Source: Ralstonia pickettii (lineage in GTDB: Bacteria; Pseudomonadota; Gammaproteobacteria; Burkholderiales; Burkholderiaceae). From it: DNA of 64,000 nucleotides. How positions within the stretch are numbered: position 1 is the first letter of the stretch; every line of letters starts with the position of its first letter. The stretch lies in the NCBI RefSeq assembly GCF_001699815.1, contig NZ_MCGB01000061.1, positions 62,001 through 126,000 of the forward strand, read 5' to 3'. The position numbers were made by a program, and so were the translations under genes. Below, one piece after another: positions 46,594 through 48,181 of this stretch. The notes beneath the pieces are model-generated. The model was not told where the DNA came from and searched no databases. It worked only from the letters and a program-made list of their open reading frames with translations.

Positions 46594-46622
46594 TTGCGGC
46601 CCTCAAAAAAAGGGTTTATAAA
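46594..46622 (+). promoter_or_regulatory. Sigma-70 promoter of the aroG leader
   Basis: TTGCGG (46594-46599), 17 bases, TATAAA (46617-46622). The transcript would start near 46629 and run through the leader-peptide frame at 46703. Confidence 0.65.
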
Positions 46623-46702
46623 GACGGTTCGATTGGTGCGGCGCAGTAGTTCCAAGTCACCCACGCGCCACAATTTTTCCTGCATTGCCTGGTTTTCCTC
46701 TC

Positions 46703-46786
46703 ATGTCCTTCGCCAAGTTTTTTTACTTTTACTTTTGGCATCTCGCACCGCTGGCGGAAGGAGAGGGGCGCTTGCAGCAAAAATAA
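46703..46786 (+). CDS. Aromatic leader peptide of the aroG attenuator
   Basis: ATG to TAA encodes 27 residues, MSFAKFFYFYFWHLAPLAEG then EGRLQQK. Residues 6-12 are Phe-Phe-Tyr-Phe-Tyr-Phe-Trp: seven aromatic codons in a row including all three aromatic amino acids. The run ends 10 bases before an antiterminator arm (46749-46757), and a strong terminator lies 18 bases past the stop. This is the layout of ribosome-mediated attenuation sensing charged tRNAs for Phe, Tyr and Trp. The Shine-Dalgarno sequence is weak, a reservation. Confidence 0.8.
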   Translation: MSFAKFFYFYFWHLAPLAEGEGRLQQK

Positions 46787-46804
46787 AGCACCCAGCAGAT
46801 ACCG

Positions 46805-46835
46805 AAAACCGCCAGCGACCCTGGCGGTTTTTTTT
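46805..46835 (+). terminator. Attenuator terminator upstream of aroG
   Basis: AAAACCGCCAG (46805-46815), loop CGACC, CTGGCGGTTTT (46821-46831), continuing U-tract to 46835. Its 5' arm CCGCCAGCG (46809-46817) can pair instead, over nine bases, with CGCTGGCGG (46749-46757) inside the leader frame, making an antiterminator. A third arm CGCCA (46711-46715) can pair with TGGCG (46752-46756). Confidence 0.88.
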
Positions 46836-46933
46836 CGCCCAGTCACCTGCCCCACCCCGGCACCGACGCGAAACATGATCCGAACACAGTAGACGTTTCC
46901 AATAGAACTCAAGACACATCCCCGGAGCTTTCC

Positions 46934-48013
46934 ATGCCGAAGAACACCGACGATTTGCGCATTCGCGAACTGAAAGAGCTGACGCCGCCCTCGCATCTGA
47001 TCCGCGAATTCCCGTGCAGCGACACCGTGTCCGACCTGATCTACCAAAGCCGGAACGCGATGCACCGCATCCTGCATGGCATGGACGACCGCCTGATCGT
47101 CATCATCGGCCCCTGCTCCATCCACGACACCAAGGCAGCGATGGACTACGCCCGCCGCCTGGTCGAGCAGCGCGAGCGCTTCAAGAACGAGCTGGAAATC
47201 GTGATGCGCGTGTACTTCGAGAAGCCGCGCACAACCGTCGGCTGGAAGGGTCTGATCAACGATCCGCACATGGACGGCAGCTTCAAGATCAACGACGGCC
47301 TGCGCACCGCGCGCGAGCTGCTGATGAACATCAACGAACTGGGCCTGCCCGCCGGCACCGAATACCTCGACGTGATCAGCCCGCAGTACATCGCCGATCT
47401 GGTGAGCTGGGGCGCCATCGGCGCGCGCACCACCGAAAGCCAGGTGCACCGCGAACTGGCTTCCGGCCTGTCGTGCCCGGTCGGCTTCAAGAACGGCACC
47501 GACGGCAACGTGAAGATCGCCGTGGACGCCATCAAGGCCGCATCGCAGCCGCACCACTTCCTGTCGGTCACCAAGGGCGGCCACTCGGCCATCGTGTCGA
47601 CGGCAGGCAACGAGGATTGCCACATCATCCTGCGCGGCGGCAAGGCGCCCAACTATGACGCGGCCAGCGTGCAGGAAGCCTGCGACGCCATCTCCAAGTC
47701 GGGCCTGGCCGCGCGCCTGATGATCGACGCATCGCACGCCAACAGCAGCAAGAAGCACGAGAACCAGATTCCGGTGTGCGAAGACATCGCCCGCCAGATG
47801 GCTGCCGGTGACAACCGCATCGTCGGGGTGATGGTGGAATCGCACATCAATGCCGGCCGCCAGGACCACGTGCAAGGCACGCCGGTGTCCGACCTGGCCT
47901 ACGGCCAGAGCGTGACCGACGCCTGCATCGGCTGGGACGATTCGGTGAAGGTGCTGGAAACGCTGGCCGACGCCGTGCGCAAGCGCCGTCTGGTACCGGG
48001 CAGCGGCAACTAA
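46934..48013 (+). CDS. aroG: 3-deoxy-7-phosphoheptulonate synthase (class I DAHP synthase)
   Basis: First enzyme of the shikimate pathway: it condenses phosphoenolpyruvate and erythrose 4-phosphate. The 359-residue class I protein shows LIVIIGPCSIHDTKAAMDYA, MRVYFEKPRTTVGWKGLIND, VGFKNGTDGNVKIAVDAIKA, and IDASHANSSKKHENQIPVC near residue 260. Which aromatic acid inhibits it is not evident. An attenuator precedes it and a terminator follows at 48034. Confidence 0.97.
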   Translation: MPKNTDDLRIRELKELTPPSHLIREFPCSDTVSDLIYQSRNAMHRILHGMDDRLIVIIGPCSIHDTKAAMDYARRLVEQRERFKNELEIVMRVYFEKPRTTVGWKGLINDPHMDGSFKINDGLRTARELLMNINELGLPAGTEYLDVISPQYIADLVSWGAIGARTTESQVHRELASGLSCPVGFKNGTDGNVKIAVDAIKAASQPHHFLSVTKGGHSAIVSTAGNEDCHIILRGGKAPNYDAASVQEACDAISKSGLAARLMIDASHANSSKKHENQIPVCEDIARQMAAGDNRIVGVMVESHINAGRQDHVQGTPVSDLAYGQSVTDACIGWDDSVKVLETLADAVRKRRLVPGSGN

Positions 48014-48033: not shown

Positions 48034-48057
48034 AAAGGACGCCTGCGGGCGTCCTTT
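48034..48057 (+). terminator. Rho-independent terminator after aroG
   Basis: AAAGGACGCC-tgcg-GGCGTCCTTT, a ten-bp stem with tetraloop followed by TTG, 20 bases beyond the aroG stop. It is nearly symmetrical and could act on both strands. Confidence 0.9.
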
Positions 48058-48181
48058 TTGTTTGCGCGCGCATCAAAGCTCAGATCTATAACAAATGTGA
48101 GCGAAACGTATCAAAGTCACACAAGTGCGTTGTCTTTGACATATCGTAGGTGGGTTTCCCCCTGCTCTTTCGGAGGCACCC

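Follow-up and report, generated by a model that had tools for sequence, protein, structure and literature searches.

The aroG gene of Ralstonia pickettii, which encodes a class I DAHP synthase, is preceded by what is very probably a ribosome-mediated transcription attenuator. This enzyme opens the route to the aromatic amino acids, and the best-known case of its transcriptional control is that by TyrR and TrpR in enteric bacteria. In the window (the whole 64,000-nt stretch of DNA that was analyzed), a short leader reading frame with seven consecutive aromatic codons stands ahead of two alternative RNA helices, one of them an intrinsic terminator. This reading is carried by the anatomy of the locus, its conservation in relatives, coding selection on the aromatic run, covariation in the terminator helix and a switch predicted by constrained folding.

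A sequence-only reading of this DNA had described a promoter TTGCGG-17-TATAAA, a 27-codon leader with the aromatic run FFYFYFW, a nine-bp antiterminator, and a terminator with an 11-bp stem and U-tract, followed by aroG. Every one of these elements was found in its place between tldD and aroG (window coordinates):

To 46545: end of the open reading frame of a putative tldD, named from the look of its protein.
46594 to 46622, forward strand: promoter-like hexamers TTGCGG-17-TATAAA, read from the sequence (-35-like TTGCGG at 46594-46599, then 17 nt and TATAAA at 46617-46622).
46703 to 46786, forward strand: leader open reading frame MSFAKFFYFYFWHLAPLAEGEGRLQQK, 27 codons plus TAA, with an ATG start.
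46706 to 46714, forward strand: candidate arm 1, UCCUUCGCC, at leader codons 2-4; its partner is 46753-46762 (9 bp with one bulged G).
46718 to 46738, forward strand: putative sensing run F F Y F Y F W, leader codons 6-12.
46749 to 46757, forward strand: arm 2, the 5' half of the antiterminator, CGCTGGCGG / CGCUGGCGG, the exact reverse complement of arm 3.
46809 to 46817, forward strand: arm 3, CCGCCAGCG, common to the antiterminator and the 5' side of the terminator.
46805 to 46835, forward strand: intrinsic terminator with an 11-bp stem (AAAACCGCCAG, 46805-46815; CTGGCGGTTTT, 46821-46831), the 5-nt loop CGACC and a U-tract at 46828-46835.
46934 to 48013, forward strand: aroG, class I DAHP synthase, 359 aa, NCBIfam AroG equivalog.
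48034 to 48060, forward strand: terminator-like hairpin with a T-run downstream of aroG, seen by eye.

The encoded protein scores above the NCBIfam AroG cut-off (591.1 vs. 568 bits) and is 100% identical to AroG of R. pickettii strain SSH4 (locus L001). The terminator T-tract ends 98 nt before the gene, and aroG, judged by eye, is apparently alone in its transcript. From the hexamers, transcription would be predicted to start at about 46629; the best hexamer pair upstream of the leader scores 10/12 in 50 of 107 relatives scored, a count made without a shuffle control. A consensus scanner listed neither a promoter nor a terminator in this region. It passed over the promoter because its rule needs a T at the last -10 position, and it probably missed the terminator because the stem uses up the T-tract. 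The fold of the whole leader is unexceptional (z -1.62; 12/200 shuffles fold as well), and thus the case rests on arrangement and conservation.

The proposed mechanism would begin with RNA polymerase starting near 46629 and a ribosome initiating at 46703, the start of the leader. Under a shortage of charged tRNA-Phe or tRNA-Tyr (here perhaps tRNA-Trp too), the ribosome would stall on codons 6-12 with its leading edge ending just before arm 2 (46749); arm 2 would pair with arm 3 once the latter was made, the terminator would be blocked and aroG would be transcribed. If aromatic amino acids were plentiful, the ribosome would continue across arm 2 during the synthesis of arms 3 and 4, the terminator would form and transcription would stop at about 46835. 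When the ribosome is near the stop codon, arm 1 behind it may hold arm 2. Among the features that define the attenuator class are a leader reading frame rich in end-product codons and an intrinsic terminator between leader and structural gene, both of which are present, and an alternative antiterminator freed by a stalled ribosome, which is predicted here from the sequence and shows weak 2:3 covariation.

To describe this arrangement in relatives, we took upstream regions of up to 450 nt from the best 80 of 584 aroG relatives and from 99 order-level genomes, 179 in all. The 99 regions come one per genome from the best of the AroG matches listed (236/300 genomes matched), and therefore lean to closer AroG proteins. 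As a test against chance, we scored ATG-started reading frames of 8-60 codons for at least six aromatic codons within some eight. Such leaders occur in 107/179 upstream regions (75/80 of the closest and 32/99 at order level) vs. 3/1790 dinucleotide shuffles, and when regions sharing 150 bases were merged, 100/171 still reached at least six aromatic codons. On both strands of the 64-kb window, no other 450-nt piece contains an ATG reading frame with at least five aromatic codons in eight. The aromatic leader is thus more than chance. Further out, conservation is patchy: a strong leader (at least five of eight) is present in 117 regions, made up of 79 of the 80 closest and 38 of the 99 drawn at order level.

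The sequence-only reading had staked itself on conservation of the leader frame and of the alternative pairing, and the feature survived this comparison. Among the closest 80 aroG loci the sole one scored without an aromatic leader (L077) has, by eye, about 36 nt upstream of aroG. A scanned terminator is present in 108 of the 117 strong-leader regions; inspection of the other nine by eye shows hairpins in which there is a bulge or mismatch, the loop is long or the T-run is shorter. Pairing of arm 2 with arm 3 beats 60 shuffles (P ≤ 0.05) in 93/108 regions, and in 86/101 after merging those that share 150 bases. Taken together, these leaders, terminators and pairings argue for the attenuation reading of the locus. 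Arm 2 begins 3-17 nt downstream of the final codon for an aromatic residue (mode 10-11, and 77/108 regions at 7-11 nt), a spacing that matches a ribosome footprint. In the same 108 relatives, arm 2 lies 4-27 nt from the stop codon (88 nt in one frame-shifted case) and 33-66 nt from the terminator.

Covariation is strong for the terminator helix (3:4) and weak for the antiterminator helix (2:3). This was assessed in alignment A1, which holds 47 of 51 non-redundant members (all but L075, L098, L110 and L146). In A1, 96.4% of cells pair in the terminator helix; double-sided changes are seen at four pairs and in 13 cells, and 0/500 shuffles are as high. For the antiterminator helix the share of pairing cells is 84.6%, again with 0/500 shuffles as high; its eight double-changed cells are equaled by 13/500 shuffles and its covariation score of 0.052 by 14/500, and neither its three double-changed pairs (244/500 as high) nor its pair types (420/500) stand above shuffles. 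When the antiterminator partner was slid by +1 column, three pairs and eight cells were again obtained, with only 40.2% of cells pairing. The GGCGG core of 2:3 is nearly invariant, as are the cores of arms 2-4 generally. Anchored column counts (104/108 members) were dominated by this GGCGG core and are superseded by the A1 tests.

Arm 1, which like the lack of a Shine-Dalgarno sequence had gone unmentioned in the sequence-only reading, is a more tentative element, supported in only some close relatives. L001 begins its leader with the same sequence as the window, and there the pairing of arm 1 is not better than shuffles (P 0.14). By duplex energy, P ≤ 0.05 is reached in 22/108 members, split as 19/57 among L001-L057, 0/22 among L058-L080 and 0/24 from L088 up; when bulges are disallowed, it is reached in 35/108.

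We then examined the predicted switch by folding only the RNA ahead of the ribosome, whose footprint was set to reach position +13 counted from the first nucleotide of the codon in the A site; this design rules out any pairing across the ribosome. For an A site at codon 6, 9 or 12, RNA that ends at 46820 or 46824 forms the antiterminator with a probability, P(2:3), of 1.00. For codon 14 this probability is 0.01 at both ends, and that of the terminator, P(3:4), is 0.97 at 46835. For codons 15 to 28 the ribosome has covered or passed arm 2, which is then no part of the folded RNA, and P(3:4) at 46835 is 0.99. Codon 12 (Trp) is the last A-site position that leaves the whole of arm 2 free. In these constrained folds, then, a stall would leave the antiterminator arm free and smooth translation would allow the terminator, as had been proposed from the sequence. 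With a ribosome on the third codon of the run, the relatives give a median P(2:3) of 0.98, with at least 0.8 in 99/108 and under 0.5 in 6/108. Stalling would be expected to change readthrough.

In the Ralstonia leader, 26 nt separate arm 2 from the stop codon, and therefore a ribosome that had reached the stop would leave arm 2 uncovered; the predicted probability that arm 1 holds arm 2 (P12) is then 0.29, 0.64 or 0.75, varying with the 5' end chosen. Two folding results speak against a simple picture. In the first, once arm 4 has been made, the terminator wins in the complete RNA despite the stall (0.92, 0.99 and 0.73 for codons 6, 9 and 12), so the antiterminator would have to be a kinetic trap, as is usual in such attenuators.

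In the second, the RNA was folded free of ribosomes. Arm 1 first holds arm 2 (P12 0.71 in RNA ending at 46770), P(2:3) is then 0.83 at 46817, 0.54 at 46820, 0.20 at 46824 and 0.00 at 46835, and the complete RNA favors the terminator (P(3:4) 0.99 at 46835). Given the transient P(2:3), termination without a ribosome is not assured. This transient is one of two points in favor of a sensor of leader initiation, that is, of ribosome supply, in which poor initiation would mainly expose arm 2 and the run would only sharpen the response. The other is the leader start itself: an SD-like 4-mer is missing before the leader ATG in 105/108 members and present in only three, whereas the aroG start has one in 89/108, and the window leader ATG has no Shine-Dalgarno sequence upstream (46683-46705). 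However, pure initiation sensing does not require the conserved Phe and Tyr codons, and the complete ribosome-free RNA favors the terminator; we consider this alternative very improbable.

The missing SD-like site counts against translation of the leader and selection on its codons counts for it; the leader is probably translated. Among 64 relatives whose run begins FYFYF, entropy averaged across the six initial codons amounts to 0.019, 0.075 and 0.569 bits at codon positions 1, 2 and 3, and insertions within the run in L045 and L068 preserve the frame. By contrast, L023 (Caballeronia megalochromosomata) and L032 (Candidatus Burkholderia humilis) have a frameshift just past the run that alters the whole tail and leaves arms 2-4 intact. 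This pattern says that the run is maintained as codons and the tail as RNA and not as peptide.

The fate of the tail also bears on whether the terminated leader RNA or its peptide might act in trans. Such action is reported for rhizobial peTrpL (PMC7298713), and the locus is predicted to yield a discrete RNA of about 200 nt. The peptide tail, however, differs between families and is frame-shifted in the two loci just named, and trans action seems very unlikely. A metabolite- or protein-binding site, that is, a riboswitch or an RNA-binding regulator acting with the terminator, would account for a U-rich run (TTT, TAT and TAC dominate) and for the near-invariant cores of arms 2-4. But a binding site would not be expected to fix codon positions 1 and 2 while position 3 varies, nor to keep insertions in frame; distant leaders are still aromatic with another codon order, including TTC and TGG, and neither the window nor 20 relatives contain an Rfam family at gathering score, which leaves this explanation highly improbable. 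Finally, a plain 5' UTR terminator or small RNA end behind a neutral upstream reading frame, with no amino acid regulation, has a precedent in the 82 5' UTRs of a relative, B. cenocepacia, that give short transcripts by processing or attenuation, according to the accessible text of PMC5688073, but is hardly credible here, as it leaves the enrichment of aromatic runs, the spacing from run to arm 2 and the alternative pairing unexplained.

Which amino acids a ribosome-mediated attenuator of this form would sense can be judged from the runs themselves. Across 108 runs, 59 contain F, Y and W, 47 F and Y, one F and W, and one F only; F and Y thus occur together in 106/108 and W in 60/108. The earlier proposal that all three aromatic tRNAs are sensed therefore holds for Phe and Tyr and is weaker for Trp. 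On a quick aroG tree from codon positions 1 and 2 (80 rows, 79 scored, 49 with W and 30 without), the presence or absence of W changed at least eight times, and the window run has a single W codon, at its far end. Because W is patchy both across runs and over the tree, the leader is best read as a putative Phe/Tyr sensor with Trp as an optional extra. Phe is most likely the tRNA that matters most, since it accounts for four of the seven run codons and is present in all 108 runs. In Cupriavidus (L003-L006, L008-L012 and L020), some leaders read FYFYFFWH and others FYFYFFSD; with and without the Trp codon, the two would make a natural test pair for Trp sensing.

To determine how far the element extends across genomes, we searched with a covariance model (R1) built from 47 sequences with the terminator helix only. 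At E < 1e-6 it matched 71/300 order-level genomes, and in each the gene next downstream encodes a DAHP synthase; rows of the model came from the own genome and from 17 others among the 71. In 49 of the 71, the match lies, by coordinates, at most 400 nt upstream of an AroG match on the same strand; in the remaining 22, AroG follows the match in the fetched loci, with none unresolved. The matches span 14 family codes (f1, f3, f4, f7, f9, f10, f11, f12, f19, f22, f29, f38, f42 and f48). A looser count of 139/300 genomes at E ≤ 0.01 was excluded, many of its matches being to the terminator only. AroG was found in 29/37 fetched loci, and all eight loci without it have E above 1e-6. In a class-level draw of 370 genomes, seven pass 1e-6, four of them outside the order (f60 and f65), and these four have an adjoining AroG (68-70% identical) and an aromatic leader. 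At the same threshold, 229/300 genomes of the order gave no match, among them all three small genomes of a genus (g2) within the own family. There was no match in plasmid records.

Several observations were made beside this survey. L169, L205, L207 and L212 (f42, g68) keep arms 2-4 before aroG and have leaders with about one to four aromatic codons in eight (read by eye in L169 and L205), as if the sensor were decaying or changed in specificity. In L211, L215, L218 and L232, the last at about 1610-1760 (f27), an aromatic leader much like this one (e.g., MITFSAVFNAYFYWYRSSRRLQGASLD) occurs together with a terminator and a GGCGG arm, and the next gene is not aroG; in L215, the gene after the leader has no Pfam match over cut-off. 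Weaker R1 matches in the own genome include L183, L184 and L186, which are unrelated terminators beside one repeated open reading frame start, and L185 with 32 further weak matches, mostly short, to the terminator end of the model. The repeated sequence stands beside intrinsic terminators in three places of the own genome, as a reading frame starting MDGQKKRTQRDYTLAFKLAVVEQ in L184 and L186 and, by eye, on the reverse strand in L183; it looks like an insertion element.

The sequence-only reading had set this locus against the TyrR and TrpR control of the enterobacterial genes, and the gene content of the own genome fits that contrast. It contains no match to the Trp repressor family (TrpR), and its two TyrR-type HTH matches are below cut-off (25.2 and 24.8 vs. 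27 bits). There is no class II DAHP synthase. A second class I DAHP synthase (L082) is 59% identical and has no such leader, ATG reading frames in its upstream 600 nt containing at most two aromatic codons in eight. For gammaproteobacterial lineages, the regulons of TrpR and TyrR are described in the accessible text of PMC5343134, which for E. coli gives repression of aroF-tyrA by TyrR and of aroH by TrpR.

Ribosome-mediated attenuation itself is textbook, and the trpL/pheL scheme combines end-product codons in a leader peptide with mutually exclusive antiterminator and terminator. The aroG leader is alike in both respects, but here the target of control would be the first common enzyme, and the leader mixes Phe and Tyr codons, with Trp as an option. 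The E. coli trp and pheA attenuators (trpL and pheL) are described in the available portion of PMC11802643. Permissive scanning with Rfam gave nine sub-threshold matches, including Leu_leader (20.2 vs. 50 bits) and Phe_leader RF01859 (22 bits, E 0.25), and membership of the latter was rejected on its 55-bit gathering score.

Closer in target is the aroR-aroF attenuator of Corynebacterium glutamicum, for which the portions available of PMC11802643 and PMC4046766 report a response to Phe limitation via ribosome stalling. It also has a Phe-Tyr-Phe leader before a DAHP synthase gene, but belongs to another phylum, has three aromatic codons named there vs. seven here, and is described as unaffected by Tyr availability; we draw the likeness as an analogy only. 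Putative attenuators before aroA_I-alpha(Tyr)-tyrA of two Vibrio species, taken from Merino's website list, appear in the available part of PMC1173090; they too are predicted before a DAHP synthase gene, but in an operon with tyrA and in another lineage, and that part describes no leader peptide. For Shewanella aroF, a table in the accessible part of PMC2659441 gives "Attenuator sensing tyr-tRNA", which likewise suggests RNA-level control of a DAHP synthase gene, but as a prediction citing E. coli genetics of 1980. The accessible portions of PMC2965389, PMC1262725, PMC4833913, PMC4603805 and PMC5688073 do not mention an aroG leader of Burkholderiales, and our literature search, with key subscription papers outside its scope, found no description of one. 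Thus, attenuators of DAHP synthase genes have already been reported or predicted (C. glutamicum, Vibrio, Shewanella), and the Burkholderiales aroG leader appears to be new and widely conserved.

A broader possibility, which we offer tentatively, is that the leader is an old family (14 family codes in the order and two more in the class) that replaces TrpR/TyrR at the entry to the shikimate pathway. It would act as a fixed Phe/Tyr gate in which Trp sensing was repeatedly gained and lost by codon swaps; the start lacks an SD sequence, so leader initiation may be a second input. A conserved aroG leader in many Burkholderiales would point to the probable mode of control where, as in this genome, TrpR has no match, and it could become an Rfam family. 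The coming and going of Trp codons would offer a natural series for studying attenuation specificity by comparing sister species, and the leader may have a bearing on the engineering of hosts such as Cupriavidus necator.
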